From IMG/VR virus record IMGVR_UViG_3300045934_000051, positions 1-22,827 of that record: 22,827 bases of DNA. One strand, 5' to 3'. The stretch is from a virus. The notes below the pieces were generated by a model that saw nothing but the letters and a program-made list of their open reading frames with translations, was not told the origin of the DNA and searched no databases. A program made the translations under genes and the position numbers. Position 1 is the first letter of the stretch. The number at the start of each line of letters is the position of its first letter. Positions 2,588 through 11,901 of this stretch are shown piece after piece.

Positions 2588-3117
2588 GATTCGACCTCCT
2601 CGAGGAGCGGCGCCTCGGCGAGCGCCGGTACCGTCGCGATCGTGTCGTCAGGAAACAAACCCGGCTCGGCCTCGGTGGTCGTCACAAACCGTTGCCCGAG
2701 TAACCAGTCGTGCAAAAACTCGAGATCGCGCCGCCCGACCGGGCCAAATGAGCCCTTCCAGATAAACGCAAAGCCGTCGACGTTTTTTTCAGTTCGCGCG
2801 TACGTCGCCGCGATCAGCACTTGATCAAATACGATCGCCGGCTTGCTCGTATCAGGTGCCGCGTACACCTCGAGCCGTTGCCGCGGCACGCCGAGGGTAA
2901 AGTCGACGCGCTTTAAGTGGGGTTGCGGCTCGGGATGATTGAGCTTGAATAGCGTCGCGCGCACGAGGCCGGGCAACGCGCGCGCGAGGTCGGCCTCGAA
3001 AGGTTGCACCCGAAGCCGTACGGTGATGATCTTCACCTCCTCGCCCTCGCGATCCTCGACCCCGTGAGCGATTTGATCGAGAAACATCCCGACCTTTGCC
3101 ACGTCAAAAAGTTTCAA
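2584..3117 (-). CDS. Conserved phage protein of unknown function
   Basis: 177 residues from a TTG at 3117. I prefer this start because GGGAGG lies a few bases upstream and the product then begins MKLFDVAKVGMFLDQIAHG, which resembles a phage family I have seen in early regions. The middle (EEVKIITVRLRVQPF, later KPAIVFDQVLIAATYAR) is beta-rich and the end is FGPVGRRDLEFLHDWLLGQ followed by an acidic tail. It overlaps the end of the sigma-like gene by 14 bp. A longer frame runs to 3162 but lies wholly inside the upstream gene. The role is unknown. Confidence 0.75.
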   Translation of the reverse strand: MKLFDVAKVGMFLDQIAHGVEDREGEEVKIITVRLRVQPFEADLARALPGLVRATLFKLNHPEPQPHLKRVDFTLGVPRQRLEVYAAPDTSKPAIVFDQVLIAATYARTEKNVDGFAFIWKGSFGPVGRRDLEFLHDWLLGQRFVTTTEAEPGLFPDDTIATVPALAEAPLLEEVES

Positions 3118-4171
3118 TGAGGCCTCCCTTTCCAATTGAGACCGGCGGAATCTTTGGATCACGATTCGTAATTTCGGAAAACGACAACGCCATAACGCGC
3201 GCGCTTTCGATCAAGGCGGGATCTTGCGGGTAATCGAACGCCACACGAAGCGCCGGGTACAATCGCGATATCGGCTCGAGCAAGATTTTCACGTTCGCAT
3301 ACGCACAATCGCCCTCGACCTCGATCGAGGCACGCCCGATCGCGCGCACAAAGCATTCGAGCACGGGGATCTCATTGGCCGGTCGCAATGCGCCACGTTG
3401 AAAACCAGTCTCGAGCGAGCCATCCATTCGCGCCACCAAGATCCGCCCGCGCGGATCGGGATAAATCACGGTTGCCGGATCGACGATCGGCGGCGACTCG
3501 ACCTTGACCGCGGCGGGTTCGCGTTTGGCTTGGTCCTCTATCGAGGCGGTATCGGTGATCCCGACGAATGGGCGCAAGTGTTTACTTCGGCTCGGATGTC
3601 GTAATTTTCTGAGCGCCTTCGCTTCAATCGCGCGCACGCGTTCACGGCCGATTTTGAATTCGTGGCCCACGTCCTCGAGTGTCTCGGCGTCATTCCCATT
3701 GAGCCCAAATCGCCGCTCAATGATTCGCCGCTCGCGTGGGGTGAGTTTGTCGAGAGCAACCGCGATCGCCGCGCGTAATTCGTCTTTCTCAATGGAGTCA
3801 TCCTGAACGGGCGGCAACGATAAACGACGCGCAGCCGTGAGCGAGAGGAATCGATCGCTACTCAATTCCGCGACTCGCCGCGTTGGGAATCCGCCGTATA
3901 AATCTGGCGGGAATAATTCATCGGGCCCGAGGCCGGTAATCTCACATAACCGTCGAGGTGTACGTCGGAGCGGATCCTCGTCGCCGGCGGTCACATTCGA
4001 CCGAGGCGGCCGCTTATAGGGGTTTTCAGAGAGATTTAAATACTCGCCGACCATCCGCTGATCGAGCGCATGCCGGCGGCAAAAGTCGGCCACGCTTGGA
4101 TACACGTCAAAGATCGCATGCCAAAGCACATTATTTCGACAACGCAATTCAAGCCGAAGGTCGTTTACCAT
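3104..4171 (-). CDS. Sigma-70 region 4-like transcription factor with extra C-terminal domain
   Basis: 355 residues in three parts. Residues 1-95 resemble an XRE-like N-terminal domain found in phage sigma-like proteins (LRLELRCRNNVLWHAI, then SVADFCRRHALDQRMV, ending in LCEITGLGPDELFP). Residues 134-200 are a clear sigma-70 region 4: LDKLTPRERRIIERRFGL, then ETLEDVGHEFKIGRERVR and AIEAKALRKLRHPSRSKHLR, so it should bind a -35-like element and touch RNA polymerase. Residues about 235-355 form a third domain I do not recognise. No region 2 is visible, so it is not a complete sigma factor. It overlaps the upstream nuclease-like gene by 7 bp and is probably a regulator of later phage transcription (inference). 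Confidence 0.85.
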   Translation of the reverse strand: MVNDLRLELRCRNNVLWHAIFDVYPSVADFCRRHALDQRMVGEYLNLSENPYKRPPRSNVTAGDEDPLRRTPRRLCEITGLGPDELFPPDLYGGFPTRRVAELSSDRFLSLTAARRLSLPPVQDDSIEKDELRAAIAVALDKLTPRERRIIERRFGLNGNDAETLEDVGHEFKIGRERVRAIEAKALRKLRHPSRSKHLRPFVGITDTASIEDQAKREPAAVKVESPPIVDPATVIYPDPRGRILVARMDGSLETGFQRGALRPANEIPVLECFVRAIGRASIEVEGDCAYANVKILLEPISRLYPALRVAFDYPQDPALIESARVMALSFSEITNRDPKIPPVSIGKGGLIETF

Positions 4172-4539
4172 CGGGCAAACATCGGGAGTTCCCCGCGCCA
4201 GGCGAGCGCGCCGCGGATCGTCTCGACCGCGGTCGCGTTGCGGATTTGAATTTCGGTGAAGCGCAACACGCGCCAGCCGAGCAGGACCGCGGCGTTATAT
4301 TTTTCGGTGTCGGCACTAAACCCGGCCCCGCGCGTATGCCGCCCCTTCGAAAAGATCGCGCCCTCGACCTCGGCGATCAGGGCATGCTCGAGCCACACGA
4401 AATCGGCCCGCCATTTCCTCGAGGGATGAAAGGGAAACTCGCGCGCCGGCGGCGGGAGGTGCGCCGCGAGAATTTGCGCGTAAAGTTTTTCCTCCCACTT
4501 GGAGTCGGCCTTGCGCCGCGGCGCGCGCAGAATGATCAC
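4165..4539 (-). CDS. DUF559/Vsr-like PD-(D/E)XK endonuclease
   Basis: 124 residues. The order PSRKWRADFVW, then HALIAEVEG, then FSADTEKYNAAVLLGWRVLRFTEIQI matches small phage and bacterial DUF559/Vsr-type nucleases. The RADF aspartate and the EVEG strand supply the PD-(D/E)XK-like acidic residues, and the final strand (WRVLRFTEIQI) is the family's ending. In phages these often act in place of RusA or another resolvase. The ATG overlaps the upstream stop (ATGA). The specific substrate cannot be read from sequence. Confidence 0.75.
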   Translation of the reverse strand: MIILRAPRRKADSKWEEKLYAQILAAHLPPPAREFPFHPSRKWRADFVWLEHALIAEVEGAIFSKGRHTRGAGFSADTEKYNAAVLLGWRVLRFTEIQIRNATAVETIRGALAWRGELPMFARW

Positions 4540-5263: not shown

Positions 5264-5556
5264 CCGGCCGCCTCATCATCGAAGGGAAGGCGCACTTTTC
5301 GGCCGCCCTTGCGCCCATCCGAGCGCCGCACGAAATCGGGCCGTTGATTGATATAGCGCACCGGCGCCGGCGGTGCCGTCGCCTCGAGCGGTGCCGGTTC
5401 CTCGAGCCGGGCGAGGAGTTCCTCGCACACGGCGCACAACGCATCGGCGGTGTCGCGCCCGCAATGCAGGCACCCCGACGGATCGTAGGGTTGCCGGCCG
5501 CGGGCCAGGTAGCGCCGGAGCTTGCCGATCAGCGTGGTTTTTAGCGGCGTGTCCAT
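5260..5556 (-). CDS. Zinc-ribbon protein
   Basis: 98 residues from ATG 5556. Residues about 25-50 hold CLHCGRDTADALCAVCEELL, a textbook C-x2-C...C-x2-C zinc ribbon. The N terminus is basic (LKTTLIGKLRRYLARGRQP) and the C terminus is Arg/Lys-rich then acidic. The start overlaps the upstream gene by 16 bp; the frame stays open to 5613, but the first ATG that fits a neighbour-like spacing is 5556. Likely a nucleic-acid-binding accessory protein (inference). Confidence 0.75.
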   Translation of the reverse strand: MDTPLKTTLIGKLRRYLARGRQPYDPSGCLHCGRDTADALCAVCEELLARLEEPAPLEATAPPAPVRYINQRPDFVRRSDGRKGGRKVRLPFDDEAAG

Positions 5557-5768
5557 GGTCCCTCTCGTCGACCGGCCGCGCGCCGGTGCTCGTCTACGTC
5601 GAGCCGGTCGCATGCCTCCTCGACGGTATCGAGGTTGTACGGAATCCGAAGGCCGGCGAGCCGCGTTTTCAACGCCTCTTTCAGATCCGCGCGACCGACA
5701 AAAGCCTCGGTCGCCGCGATCTCGCGGAGAATTTTCACCGTGACTTTCCGCAATTCTTCTCTCGTCAT
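5541..5768 (-). CDS. Hypothetical small helical protein, first gene after the phased array
   Basis: 75 residues, largely helical (MTREELRKVTVKILREIAA, then ADLKEALKTRLAG) with a basic tail. It is the first gene downstream of the 212-bp non-coding region with the 11-bp array, so its expression is likely controlled there. Codon use matches its neighbours. No family recognised; a winged-helix-type fold is possible but not shown. Confidence 0.65.
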   Translation of the reverse strand: MTREELRKVTVKILREIAATEAFVGRADLKEALKTRLAGLRIPYNLDTVEEACDRLDVDEHRRAAGRREGPWTRR

Positions 5769-5980
5769 CGCGACAAAAACGCGCGTAGCGCGGTTCTAAT
5801 TGCTATTAGTACGACGATCGTAGGGAAAGTACCCAGACGTACCGTCGAAGCAACGAAGCACGTAATACGGGTACGGGTACGGGGCTTCGTTTTGCTTCGC
5901 GTGTGCTTCAAGCACAACGCAAGCAGAGTGTAAGCAGGAATTAAGCAATGTGCTTCGTATGTGCTTTATGTTTGCTTGCC
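5769..5980 (-). promoter_or_regulatory. Non-coding regulatory or centromere-like region
   Basis: A 212-bp gap inside an otherwise tightly packed operon, visibly less GC-rich than its surroundings. It holds the 11-bp phased TGCTT array (5893-5988), two further AAGCA copies at 5848 and 5856, a repeated GGGTAC run at about 5869-5880, and a 5-bp inverted repeat (CTAAT/ATTAG) at 5796-5809 just upstream of the next gene. I see no convincing sigma-70 promoter pair. It could be an operator cluster, a centromere-like site or a second origin. Confidence 0.6.
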
Positions 5981-5988
5981 TTATGCTT
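5893..5988. repeat. Ten TGCTT/AAGCA half-sites at 11-bp spacing
   Basis: On the plus strand TGCTT begins at 5893 and 5904; AAGCA (its reverse complement) begins at 5910, 5921, 5932 and 5943; TGCTT begins again at 5951, 5962, 5973 and 5984. Spacing within each run is exactly 11 bp, so all sites in a run face the same side of the helix. The runs meet head-to-head at 5902-5916 (a 7-bp perfect inverted repeat) and tail-to-tail at 5943-5955. The last copy lies at the 3' end of the upstream gene, next to its stop codon. Confidence 0.85.
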
Positions 5989-6388
5989 CCCTTCGGTGTC
6001 GCGCCTTCGCGCGCCGCGTGAGCCCCGATTTCAAGCCCCCGAGCCGGCCCGCGCGGGCTTTGGTCTCGTGTTGCCGGTCTCGATGTTCTTTGTATTCCGC
6101 CGCGGTGAAGTTGTGATCGAGAAAATCGTGTATCTGATAGCCGCCGTTTTGTTTCTCCCAAAGGCCCGCGCTCACGAGCGCCTCGGCGACCTTGAGCGGT
6201 TGATCGCAATGCGCAAAATTCTTGACGACCGCGGCCGGTAAAAATCCGTCGGTCAGTTGCTTATTGGTCCAGATCAGCCCGACCGTAAATAGGCCCATCG
6301 CAATCGCGGGCCCGTCCTTCCCGATCAATTCGCCAGCGACAAAAATTTTTCGGTGATCGATTAGTGAGTCATCGAGTTTTGACCACAC
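5981..6388 (-). CDS. Replisome-organiser-type phage protein
   Basis: 135 residues from a GTG two bases after the upstream stop. The start (MWSKLDDSLIDHRKIFVAGE) and the middle (AMGLFTVGLIWTNKQLTDG, then VVKNFAHCDQPLKVAEALV) match the N-terminal winged-helix-like region of phage replication or replisome-organiser proteins I know, and HDFLDHNFTAAEYKEHRDR also fits. The C terminus is short and basic, so the usual second domain is missing; it may be an auxiliary DNA-binding protein rather than a loader. The phased array begins at its stop codon. Confidence 0.65.
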   Translation of the reverse strand: MWSKLDDSLIDHRKIFVAGELIGKDGPAIAMGLFTVGLIWTNKQLTDGFLPAAVVKNFAHCDQPLKVAEALVSAGLWEKQNGGYQIHDFLDHNFTAAEYKEHRDRQHETKARAGRLGGLKSGLTRRAKARHRREA

Positions 6389-6390
6389 GA

Positions 6391-6591
6391 CTAGAGATCC
6401 TCGCCGACCAGAACGGCCCCGACGGTTTCAACGATCGCGCCCCGCTCGAGGCGCACAAGCTCGGGCACGCGGTGATCGGGATGCGCCAGGCCGGCCCGGC
6501 GCCGATCGCACGTGGGCGAGGTGCACCCGACGTGCTCGTTACAGGTGTCGCAAATGTGCACGTGAAACCGTGCGATCTGTTCCGGTGTCAT
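6391..6591 (-). CDS. Small Cys/His-rich protein
   Basis: 66 residues starting MTPEQIARFHVHICDTC. His and Cys residues cluster in the first 30 residues (HVHICDTCNEHVGC then CD), enough for one zinc site. The remainder is a helix followed by an acidic end. ATGA coupling upstream supports the start. No family recognised. Confidence 0.6.
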   Translation of the reverse strand: MTPEQIARFHVHICDTCNEHVGCTSPTCDRRRAGLAHPDHRVPELVRLERGAIVETVGAVLVGEDL

Positions 6592-6787: not shown

Positions 6788-7762
6788 TCACCCCCACCGA
6801 ATGTCGTCCGCGGTTGTTTCCTCGGGGCTCGAGGGCCCCGTTTTCTTCGGCCGCGGAAATTTCTTGAGCCGCGCCGCATAGGCCGCGCGCAAGGTCGCGA
6901 GCACGCCGGGCGGCATGGATTCTTTCGCCGCCAGGAGGCCGGCGCCGACCTCCTCGAGCGCCTCGCGCGAGCGCGCCGCCGCGATCCGCTCGGCCCACCC
7001 CGGCGCCGCGCCCGGCGCCCCGTGCGCCCAGGCCCCGAGCCGCTCGCCGGCGGCCTCGGTGATCGGTGCGTCGAGCGGGAAATACTCGCGGTGTTGCGCT
7101 TGGAGCTTGATCGGGTGCGGCACGCCGGGCCGGTCGGCCATCAGGAGAAAACTCGCGGTGAGTTCGTACGGCAAATTCTTCTCGCAGATCGGGATCCAGC
7201 CATGCAACCCGGTGAGCGATTCTTTCGCGACGATCTCCATCTTGCCGCCCTCGCCGCGCCGCATTTCGACTTTCGGCTCGGCGCGGAAGCACAAGATCAC
7301 GTGCGCCCGTACCTGCAACAGGCGTTGCACCATTTGTTTGTGCCCCTGTTTCGGTTTGATCCAGGCGGCCATCTTCGCGGCCTCGCGCTTTTTCCAATCG
7401 TCGCCCGCGATGCGATCGAGTTCGGCCTCGTGTTGATCGAGGATCCCGCCCTCGCCGGCCCACTCGTGCGACATCGAATCGACGATGATCACCGGGTATT
7501 TCGCGGCGTCGGCGGCCTTGATCGCGTCGGTGTATTTCGCCGGCGTAAAGGGTGCCGTGAGATCACCGTGATCGAAACGAAACTCATCGGCGTAATGAGC
7601 CGCGCGGCCAGCCTCGGTATCGAGGCACACGAAAGGCACCTCGCCGGCGAGCCCCTTCGCGAGCCGAAACGCCGAGAACGTTTTGCCCGATCCGGTACCG
7701 CCACTCAAGCCGATGAGTAACGACACTTGCGATCGTTTCGCCGGGCGAAATTCAAACGTCAT
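6788..7762 (-). CDS. RecA-like ATPase, Sak4-type recombinase
   Basis: 324 residues. Walker A is GGTGSGKT at residues 21-28 and Walker B is VIIVD at 91-95, followed by SMSHEWAGEGG. This is the minimal RecA core of phage Sak4-like (AAA_24) single-strand annealing or recombination ATPases. The central region (VRAHVILCFRAEPKVE, later LPYELTASFLLMADRPG) fits the same family. The extra C-terminal 90 residues are Ala/Glu-rich and likely flexible. Tandem ATGs at 7765 and 7762 overlap the upstream gene by 11-14 bp; the longer frame to 7843 is probably not used. It sits beside nuclease-like and methyltransferase genes, which fits a recombination or replication role. Confidence 0.85.
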   Translation of the reverse strand: MTFEFRPAKRSQVSLLIGLSGGTGSGKTFSAFRLAKGLAGEVPFVCLDTEAGRAAHYADEFRFDHGDLTAPFTPAKYTDAIKAADAAKYPVIIVDSMSHEWAGEGGILDQHEAELDRIAGDDWKKREAAKMAAWIKPKQGHKQMVQRLLQVRAHVILCFRAEPKVEMRRGEGGKMEIVAKESLTGLHGWIPICEKNLPYELTASFLLMADRPGVPHPIKLQAQHREYFPLDAPITEAAGERLGAWAHGAPGAAPGWAERIAAARSREALEEVGAGLLAAKESMPPGVLATLRAAYAARLKKFPRPKKTGPSSPEETTADDIRWG

Positions 7763-8333
7763 CATTCGTGAAATGCTCGAAGAGCGATCCTTGCGCCGGA
7801 TTGGCCGTAGCCATGGCATGAAGGATGCGCCCGAGTTTTTCAAGATTGCCGACGGCCTTTTGGACTTGCTCGCTCGCGTTCGGCGTGATCACATACGCTG
7901 CGTATTTCCGCGCGAAGTCGTCGCGCAGTCGAAACCCTTGCGAGGTGCGCGTCTTGTTTTCTTCTATCGGAAATCGCTTTGCTGACACGAGCGCCCGAAG
8001 ATGGACTTGAGGAAAAATAAAAATCGTGTCGTAGTCACCGATGACATACAGCCAGGAATTGTCGCGGCGAAAGATCCCCGATGGACAGTAATCGCCGTCC
8101 CGCGGCACCGCCTTCTCGGAGATCTCGATCCAGAGATTGCCGGTATGGGCATACAGTTCGTCGTGCTTAATCTCGATTCCTTGGCGCGATTCTCCAATTG
8201 CGTACTGATAGACGCGACTGGAATAGACCTGAATGATCAAGCCGATCGTGTGGCTGAGCGTGTCCACCACGAAATCCTGATAGAGCAGGCCCGATTCGAT
8301 TTTGTTGCGACGATAGGCTTCATACGTCGTCAT
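7752..8333 (-). CDS. Nuclease-like conserved phage protein
   Basis: 193 residues. The segment YQYAIGESRQGIEIKHDE, then GNLWIEISEKA, then NSWLYVIGDYDTIFIF matches a phage family I know with an E-x-K-x-D strand and a W-I-E strand, consistent with a PD-(D/E)XK-type fold. E and K of GIEIKHD and E of WIEI are candidate catalytic residues. ATGA coupling to the methyltransferase and overlap with the ATPase place it in a DNA-processing cluster. Activity is not proven by sequence. Confidence 0.7.
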   Translation of the reverse strand: MTTYEAYRRNKIESGLLYQDFVVDTLSHTIGLIIQVYSSRVYQYAIGESRQGIEIKHDELYAHTGNLWIEISEKAVPRDGDYCPSGIFRRDNSWLYVIGDYDTIFIFPQVHLRALVSAKRFPIEENKTRTSQGFRLRDDFARKYAAYVITPNASEQVQKAVGNLEKLGRILHAMATANPAQGSLFEHFTNDDV

Positions 8334-9346
8334 ACGGCCGCCTCATTCCCCCACGCGGCCCACCCCTCGATCGGTTCTCCTCGATGAAACAATTCGAGGC
8401 GTTTACCGTGCGGATAGAGCGTCTCGATGATGATCCGAAAGACGCCGGGCTTTTCACTGTGATCGGTGCGGCCGGTTTTCTGTACCGAATCGAAAAGTTT
8501 CGGCACGTCTGGCGGGCATGAGCCGCGCACGGCGAGCAATAAAAATTCGTGTCGTACTGAGTTGTAATGCCCGCGATTGTGGGCGTGCTTATCCCAGACA
8601 AACGAGGATTTGTACGTGAAGCCCCACGATCGAATCACCGCGAAAGCGTCCTCGAGGAGCGGCGAGGTCGTCCACAAAAACAAAACCGCGTTAGGCTCGC
8701 AGATCTCGGCGACCTTCATCGCGCACAGTTCGTCGAGGGTCATCGACGGGTAATGTTGCTCGGCGCCGCCCGACTGGACCGATCCGGCGTCGGCCTTGTC
8801 GTTGTAGCTCCACGGCGGATCGGCATAGATGACGCGAAATTTCGCGTCGGGAAGCTCGACACGTTGACGTAGTTTCTCGGCCGTGTCGTGGCGCTTCGCG
8901 ACGCGGTCGGCGCGGGCGGTGCGACTGTCGGTCTCGTGTAAGACCGCGTCGGTTGCCGCTAACGTCGTCAGCAGATCGAGCGGTTCGTCGGTGGTGGAAA
9001 CTCCACCACCGCGATCGTTTTCCTTCTCGCGTTTTTTGGGGTAGGTGGTGGAATTTCCACCACGCGGTTTACCAAGATCCTCACGGACCGTGTATCTGTC
9101 GACGCCAGTCACCTTCGCGATCTCTCGTTCAGAATGCCCCTCGGCCGCGAGTGTCTTGACGGCGTGTTGCCGTTCCTCGACGGAATATTTCACGTAGCCG
9201 CCGAGGCGTTGTTTCACCCAATCGTCGACGGACAACTTGAGCGCCTTCGGCACCCCGAGGCGTTGCGCCAGTGCGATCTGCCGCCAGCCGCCGGCGACGA
9301 CTTGACCGAGGGCCTGCGTGTATTCCTCGGCGTCTTCGGGCTTCAC
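8330..9346 (-). CDS. HTH / MT-A70 N6-adenine DNA methyltransferase
   Basis: 338 residues from GTG 9346. Residues about 1-50 resemble a ParB-type N-terminal region, residues 73-90 form a helix-turn-helix (SEREIAKVTGVDRYTVRED), residues 91-165 are a charged linker, and residues 168-338 are an MT-A70 methyltransferase. Motif IV is DPPW at 176-179 (YADPPWSYND), and HYPSMTLDEL follows near 198. The enzyme should transfer a methyl group from S-adenosylmethionine to adenine N6; phages use such enzymes to escape restriction or regulate genes. No partner restriction gene is nearby, so it is an orphan methylase. The linker carries two near-perfect DNA palindromes (8990-9010 and 9045-9063). Confidence 0.9.
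   Translation of the reverse strand: MKPEDAEEYTQALGQVVAGGWRQIALAQRLGVPKALKLSVDDWVKQRLGGYVKYSVEERQHAVKTLAAEGHSEREIAKVTGVDRYTVREDLGKPRGGNSTTYPKKREKENDRGGGVSTTDEPLDLLTTLAATDAVLHETDSRTARADRVAKRHDTAEKLRQRVELPDAKFRVIYADPPWSYNDKADAGSVQSGGAEQHYPSMTLDELCAMKVAEICEPNAVLFLWTTSPLLEDAFAVIRSWGFTYKSSFVWDKHAHNRGHYNSVRHEFLLLAVRGSCPPDVPKLFDSVQKTGRTDHSEKPGVFRIIIETLYPHGKRLELFHRGEPIEGWAAWGNEAAV
8990..9010. repeat. Palindrome 1 in methyltransferase linker
   Basis: A 9-bp inverted repeat (GGTGGTGGA and TCCACCACC) separated by 3 bases. It shares the box TGGTGGA with the second palindrome 35 bp away. It lies in the linker between HTH and catalytic domains, where protein sequence is likely unconstrained. Confidence 0.85.
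9045..9063. repeat. Palindrome 2 in methyltransferase linker
   Basis: A 9-bp inverted repeat (GTGGTGGAA and TTCCACCAC) with a single central base. Together with the first palindrome it gives four TGGTGGA boxes in 74 bp. Confidence 0.85.
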
Positions 9347-11067: not shown

Positions 11068-11901
11068 TCACACACCAAACCGTTGCCGAACCGCCGAGTG
11101 TGTTAACTCGCGCAAAATCCAGCGTTGAATCGTCGGCCCGCGTTCCTCTGGCTTCATGACCTCGAGATGCTTGCGAAGGCTATCGGAGGCGTGTTGCTCG
11201 AGGGTCGCTTTCGCCGCCGGCGCCAGGCGCTCATACGCGAGACGCGCGGCAATGGGGGCGTCAGCGAGCGGGGCGGTCGTCTCGTCGTCGGTCAGTTCGG
11301 GTCTGTCATGGCGAGACTGACGCGAAGCGGCAGGTTCTTTAGGTTCAGATGTACGTTCGATCTCTGTAGTTCTGTTCTTTAAGTTCAAGTATTTAAGTTC
11401 GCCGCCGTCTGGCGGCGCCTGTCGTGGCGTATTACGGCGGCTGTCGTGGCCTATTACGGCGGCTGTCGGCTCTATTACGGCGGCTGTCGCGCCTGAGACG
11501 GCGGCTGTCGCGGGCTCACAGGCGCCGCGCGGCGGCGGCTGTCGAGGGTTCACAGGCGCCGTATTACGGCGGCTGTCGGCCGTCGGTACCGACCAGGCGG
11601 GGCGGGTCGGCAACCGGTCGACATGGAAGCGATAGCGCGCGACTCGGCCGCGCGAGGCGTACCGCGACGGTACGTGGCCGAGGCGTTCCAAGATCCCACC
11701 CTGCTCGAGCGCCTTGACGATCTTTCGCACGCTCGAATTCGCGAGCCCGGTTTGCCACGCGACCCGTTCGACCGAGGGATACAAATCGTTGCCGCGGCCG
11801 CGGCGGTCACATTCCAAAAACGCGAAGAGTACGAATTTCGCCATTGGTGATAGGCCGGAATTCCAGATTTGATCTCGTTGCTGCCAGCTGTCGCCTGACA
11901 A
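11068..11901 (-). CDS. Phage replication initiator (HTH_36-type N terminus)
   Basis: 277 residues. Residues 10-90 (SGLSPMAKFVLFAFLECDRR, then YPSVERVAWQTGLANSSVRK and IVKALEQGGILERLG) are a winged helix of the kind found in phage and plasmid replication initiators. Residues 105-185 are a low-complexity Pro/Ala/Arg linker that coincides exactly with a DNA repeat array. The last 70 residues are helical (LAYERLAPAAKATLEQHAS). The layout, N-terminal DNA-binding domain with the origin inside the middle of its own gene, mirrors lambda O and ori-lambda. The initiator should bind the repeats and recruit the replicative helicase; no helicase or loader is visible in the window. Confidence 0.75.
   Translation of the reverse strand: MSGDSWQQRDQIWNSGLSPMAKFVLFAFLECDRRGRGNDLYPSVERVAWQTGLANSSVRKIVKALEQGGILERLGHVPSRYASRGRVARYRFHVDRLPTRPAWSVPTADSRRNTAPVNPRQPPPRGACEPATAAVSGATAAVIEPTAAVIGHDSRRNTPRQAPPDGGELKYLNLKNRTTEIERTSEPKEPAASRQSRHDRPELTDDETTAPLADAPIAARLAYERLAPAAKATLEQHASDSLRKHLEVMKPEERGPTIQRWILRELTHSAVRQRFGV
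11336..11402. other. AT-rich tract, candidate DNA-unwinding element
   Basis: About 67 bp with clearly lower GC than the surroundings, including GTTCTTTAAGTTCAAG and TTTAAGTTC-type repeats. It lies directly beside the iteron array on the downstream side of the gene. Coding is preserved (LKYLNLKNRTTEI), with AT-rich codons atypical of this genome. Confidence 0.6.
11430..11578. repeat. Iteron array, candidate origin of replication
   Basis: The 17-mer TATTACGGCGGCTGTCG is present exactly at 11430, 11452, 11473 and 11562, with variants keeping ACGGCGGCTGTCG or GGCGGCTGTCG at 11494 and 11528. Start-to-start spacing is 22, 21, 21, 34 and 34 bp, close to whole helical turns for the first four. The same DNA unit is read as TAAVI in one copy and DSRRNT in another, so it is conserved as DNA, not protein. 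Two copies of TCACAGGCGCCG fill the 34-bp intervals. Confidence 0.8.

Follow-up and report, generated by a model that had tools for sequence, protein, structure and literature searches.

The genome of an uncultivated virus raises the question of what function is served by a short, strictly phased array of five-base boxes that lies at the end of one gene and before the start of the next. The window analysed here, namely the whole 22,827-nucleotide stretch of the IMG/VR record IMGVR_UViG_3300045934_000051, contains ten TGCTT boxes at 5893-5988, arranged in runs of two, four and four whose orientation alternates between runs. The boxes start at 5893 and 5904 on the plus strand, at 5910, 5921, 5932 and 5943 on the minus strand, and at 5951, 5962, 5973 and 5984 again on the plus strand. 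Every step within a run is exactly 11 bp, and the runs meet at two inverted junctions, TGCTT-C-AAGCA and AAGCA-ATG-TGCTT, with spacers of 1 and 3 bp. An earlier sequence-only reading had described this arrangement and considered it too regular for chance, and both statements are borne out, the positions exactly. The pattern TGCTTN6TGCTT, with at most one mismatch, occurs eight times in the window against 0.53 expected; seven of these occurrences are exact, all seven fall in the array, and the maximum count in 100 dinucleotide shuffles of the window was three. The self-similarity score of the window at a lag of 11 (base identity in runs of at least four at a fixed lag) is 22, a value reached by none of 300 shuffles. 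Two more TGCTT boxes, on the minus strand at 5848-5860 (AAGCA at 5848 and 5856), are 8 bp apart and off the 11-bp lattice, and a degenerate box, AAGCC at 5883-5887, lies just outside the array and off phase.

The phase by itself is not unusual among viruses. In viral contigs of IMG/VR, fourfold repetition of a pentamer at an exact 11-bp spacing was frequent for both pentamers tested: four 11-bp steps of the control pentamer TTCGT were found in 90 stretches, and those of TGCTT in at least 120. The notion of TGCTT as a special viral motif was therefore dropped, and, since the control pentamer is likewise common, TGCTT matches elsewhere were not counted as kin.

The same reading had placed the array in a non-coding gap, which holds for nine of the ten boxes, located between the genes at 5981-6388 and 5541-5768, whereas the tenth (5984-5988) lies within the final codons (GAA GCA TAA) of the minus-strand gene 5981-6388. 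One frame is open across the gap of the window, and a coding reading was considered, as the -1 frame reads ...AKQNEAPYPYPYYV..., resembling a protein tail; it was rejected because no open frame is maintained consistently among relatives. The frame that stays open is -1 in the window and +1 in Propionibacterium phage B22, and other relatives have interruptions, so that the gap is best treated as non-coding. Relatives with a long form of the initiator translate the repeats as a linker, while in short forms, including that of the window, the initiator frame ends before or at the array.

The gene that adjoins the array (5981-6388, minus strand, GTG start), here called RepN, encodes a replication initiator of 135 amino acids with a winged-helix domain and a long C-terminal helix. 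Its product matches phrog_2447, "replication initiation protein", with an E value of 1.9e-21, as well as three other PHROGs of that name. Searches by tblastn with this product returned homologues in 162 phage records, every one bearing an actinobacterial name; the homologues are annotated largely as replication initiation or RepA-like replication initiator proteins, or as hypothetical. The AlphaFold model of RepN (mean pLDDT 79) has the winged-helix domain and the long C-terminal helix, and its viral structural neighbours include the homologue from Propionibacterium phage Anatole and several "replisome organizer" proteins. Its neighbours in the PDB are generic winged helices with Z under 8 and no function indicated; these fold matches support a DNA-binding fold for the modelled protein, and nothing further. 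A profile search of the PDB by the RepN sequence gave no match, and searches of Pfam and NCBIfam placed it in no family. The long forms, with 250-330 amino acids, have a C-terminal part that is absent from RepN. A helicase gene is close to the initiator homologue in 1191A, Dropshot, Birdsong and Schmidt; none of the DnaB type was detected in the window or in 15 uncultivated relatives.

Searches with proteins of the window and of the locus L009 yielded 17 IMG/VR loci, one of which is a near-copy of the window, and one locus of Mycolicibacterium vulneris, while a DNA-level search of phages with the window gave no match. Three loci were not treated as independent, being one contig or a near-copy of the window: L008 and L233 are both IMGVR_UViG_3300045885_000121, L108 has the same length and array, and all are identical to the window where aligned. 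The comparison comprised 15 uncultivated phages (approximately 45-60% identity in the initiator), actinobacteriophages and the one Mycolicibacterium locus. In the 200-400 bases 3' of the initiator domain, most of the IMG/VR and Mycolicibacterium loci have phased repeats, and box sequences differ across the set (AAGCA, GGATTCC, GTCCGC, GTCAC). TAGCAA boxes occur in L234 and L245, GGATTCC boxes in L238 (seven copies at 11 bp), L242 and others, and GTCCGC boxes, in both orientations, in L239, L241 and L243. Among cultured phages, 12-bp steps are seen in B22, where the boxes read AAGCA and the CCCGTACCCGTA (CCCGTA) element known from the window comes next, and also in Malibo, prophiT36-2a and 1191A, whose boxes are of other sequence and lie within the coding sequence of a long initiator. 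The uncultivated relatives usually have a short initiator with a gap behind it. The box sequences of relatives were partly read by eye, because the automatic best-6-mer method is misled by CGCG runs, reporting CGCGCG or GCGCGC in L244 and L246-L248, and it also misreads L239, L241, L243 and L225 through other 6-mers. What is kept across the relatives as a group is the position, the 11-12 bp phasing and a CCCGTACCCGTACC element after the repeats. The alignment of related phages proposed in the sequence-only reading, which asked whether the TGCTT phase is retained, accordingly gives a divided answer: the phase is kept at 11-12 bp in the group, and TGCTT itself is often replaced.

The phasing was quantified in segments that run from the initiator domain to the tandem element behind it. 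Pooled over 28 loci, the self-similarity score was 210 at lag 11 against a shuffle mean of 33.8 (sd 7.7), approximately 23 s.d. above, and 181 at lag 12 against 33.4 (sd 7.3), approximately 20 s.d. above, with echoes of the phased signal at lags 22-24. Random segments drawn elsewhere in the same 25 loci gave 22.9 at lag 11 (sd 5.9, maximum 41, 500 draws) against 185 observed, and 48.7 at lag 12 (sd 10.1, maximum 91) against 158; as the loci were collected through the initiator protein, these figures establish the association of array and initiator in one direction only. Taken locus by locus, with the higher of the two lags at the 5% level, the signal was not significant in L235, L237, L241, L246, L247, L248, L250, L227 and L232. 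Box types are clustered on the initiator tree beyond chance: a tree of 21 initiator domains requires seven changes of box type against a shuffle mean of 12.0, and only two of 200 shuffles were as low. Each sorted type changes more than once, even between the close relatives L241 and L242, and box type thus does not simply follow descent.

Beyond the array, the gap contains further elements that recur in relatives. The tandem element CCCCGTACCCGTACCCGTA follows at 5866-5884 (minus strand); CCCGTACC is present in 14 of the 15 uncultivated relatives and in B22, and several actinophages have (CCCGA)n. Past this element, the 20 bases richest in A+T, TACTAATAGCAATTAGAAC (5793-5811, minus strand), represent a candidate unwinding element; the A+T enrichment is modest, as the richest stretch past the element, TACTAATAGCAATTAGAACC, has 14 A/T among 20 bases, and this stretch lies 72 bases beyond the start of CCCGTACC. 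Local G+C falls to 49% in 5800-5999, and a similar A+T-rich motif is found at +80 to +95 in L235, L236, L239, L240, L242 and L244. At the far edge of the gap, a G+C hairpin, CGCGCTACGCGCG, followed by TTTTTG (5780-5792, minus strand), is a possible terminator; terminator-like sites number three, against 1.7 expected. The motif AGCAATTAGAAC or a close variant, with a G+C hairpin after it just ahead of the next gene, was observed in the window (5793-5811, minus strand), L235, L236, L239, L240 and L244.

The neighbouring genes lie on the same strand. The next gene (5541-5768, minus strand) encodes 75 amino acids without a PHROG or Pfam family match; an LRIPY motif is common to its product and that of the next gene in L009. 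The initiator gene is preceded by the gene of an AAA_24 ATPase (6788-7843, minus strand; phrog_1366) that has a weak match to Sak4-like annealing proteins and is conserved in L009 at 70% identity. A DNA methyltransferase (8330-9346, minus strand; phrog_359, E 5e-58), HTH-like in its N-terminal part, precedes both the AAA_24 and the initiator genes. On the other side, a phrog_503 protein (E 5e-33) is encoded at 4165-4539 (minus strand), and 3104-4171 (minus strand), approximately 1.8 kb beyond the initiator gene, encodes a protein in which Pfam recognises a sigma-70 region 4 domain (E 7.8e-17); B22 has an annotated sigma-70 family gene approximately 1.3 kb beyond its own. At the contig end, 9-830 is of low complexity with a short repeated proline/glycine-rich pattern, possibly part of a collagen-like gene on the other strand.

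Repeats at an initiator gene are already a recognised kind of phage origin, and an origin was among the functions that the sequence-only reading had offered. That option gains from the comparison, since the array directly adjoins the gene of a replication initiator and phased repeats are seen again in this place across relatives. The array is probably the initiator-binding part of the replication origin of the phage, with the product of the adjacent gene as its predicted binder. We infer a series of steps in which the small winged-helix initiator would bind the AAGCA half-sites, one per helical turn and along one face of the DNA, while the two inverted junctions would let the initiator complex extend both ways. 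The resulting nucleoprotein filament or bend may then open the nearby A+T-rich DNA past the CCCGTA element, and the replicative helicase would be loaded, either directly or via another protein, for activity as an origin. Given that a search for DnaB-type genes in the window and the 15 uncultivated relatives gave no match, the helicase of the host would serve. As far as the literature searched goes, which lay mostly outside subscription journals, neither the spacing of very short half-sites by one helical turn, nor the alternating runs, nor the change of boxes is described for this initiator family.

Several known systems offer points of comparison. At ori-lambda, repeated sites for the O protein cluster at or in the initiator gene, beside A+T-rich DNA (PMC7466680). 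The window has, similarly, an initiator gene adjoining repeats and short sites in fixed phase, and long-form relatives carry repeats within the gene. It differs from lambda, which has four iterons, in its half-sites of approximately 5 bp at 11-bp steps and its alternating runs, in an initiator of 135 amino acids, and in the position of the repeats mostly after the gene, nine of ten being past the stop codon. Because the repeats of the window are not inside the initiator coding sequence, the locus would be lambda-like in its working rather than a member of the lambda type. RepA-like modules of phrog_2447 in actinobacteriophages share with the window a homologous initiator domain (32% identity to B22), 11-12 bp phased repeats just 3' of it, and then a CCCGTA or CCCGA tandem. 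AAGCA boxes are common to B22 and the window, unlike the spacing, which is 12 bp in B22; many actinobacteriophage modules also have a long C-terminal part and a nearby helicase gene, both of which the window lacks. Wetzel et al. 2020, who dealt with other RepA proteins of phages, could go no further than to suggest an origin in or near repA (PMC7157519). The PLE satellites of Vibrio cholerae provide a possible parallel for the change of boxes, as their RepA specificity and iterons covary and are swapped together between relatives (PMC8263062). By analogy, initiator specificity and repeats may vary together among the relatives studied here, although the PLE iterons, three semi-palindromes of approximately 30 bp, are unlike the array of the window.

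A second replication module has to be considered within the same phage. A lambda-O-like gene with an HTH_36 domain (11068-11901, minus strand) contains five internal 19-nt repeats of the TATTACGGCGGCTGTCG type at 11430-11580, with three of the four steps at 21-22 bp and one at 68 bp, next to A+T-rich DNA. Owing to this second initiator-like gene with its own internal repeats, either module could be the working origin. It is conceivable, if rather unlikely, that replication of the phage has two distinct origins, one using the winged-helix protein and its 11-bp array, the other the lambda-O-like gene and its internal repeats; if so, they might serve different states, e.g., lytic replication as opposed to a low-copy or prophage state.

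Next in plausibility, and already improbable, is an operator cluster, in which a phage repressor or the initiator itself would bind the array and control the downstream genes from 5541-5768 onward. Initiators often regulate transcription as well, and the array does sit between two genes of the same direction, but a search for promoters of the sigma-70-like type found none in 5500-6500, and the location of the repeats within the initiator gene of long-form relatives would be unusual for an operator. Moreover, the downstream genes vary between relatives, whereas the phased repeats stay with the initiator. Still less probable is that the O-like module at 11068-11901 is the working origin and that the short initiator and its array are a decaying or accessory copy. 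The HTH_36 domain and internal repeats of the O-like gene near A+T-rich DNA would fit such a relic, as would the shortness of RepN (135 amino acids vs. 250-330 in long forms); ten exact boxes in exact phase, however, are unlike decay, and the short form with a gap is usual among the uncultivated relatives, none of whose 15 records (some of which are fragments) yielded the O-like gene. The O-like gene also had no tblastn match in the phage collection.

The least probable alternative, towards which the sequence-only reading had leaned, is a centromere-like partition site of the parC type, bound by a phage ribbon-helix-helix protein in a plasmid-like prophage state: R1 ParR, a small protein, does bind parC repeats at 11-bp spacing (PMC9426499), and the window does encode two weak ribbon-helix-helix matches, where this reading had counted at least two such proteins, but their genes are 6 and 14 kb from the array and rarely shared (the first matched weakly in one of the 15 relatives' records, several of which are fragments, and RHH_1 below the cut-off in one of 15), a search of the window and relatives for ParA-type ATPases found none, the phage has an integrase gene, and the runs change orientation, whereas the ParR systems described bind direct repeats (PMC9426499). 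The repeats of R1 parC are tied to the parMR operon; the neighbours of the present array are, instead of the parMR of a ParMRC layout, the initiator gene and the 75-amino-acid gene without a family match.

Interpreted as the initiator-binding part of an origin, the array allows the origin to be predicted from sequence in a broad initiator family, for which no origin description was found in the literature searched. Most useful to specialists would be the observation that the recognised sequence moves while the phasing stays. With constant phasing and varying boxes among related initiators, these phages would constitute a natural experiment on the evolution of initiator specificity, and a number of compatible replication modules could be drawn from the set for genetic work on phages and actinobacteria.
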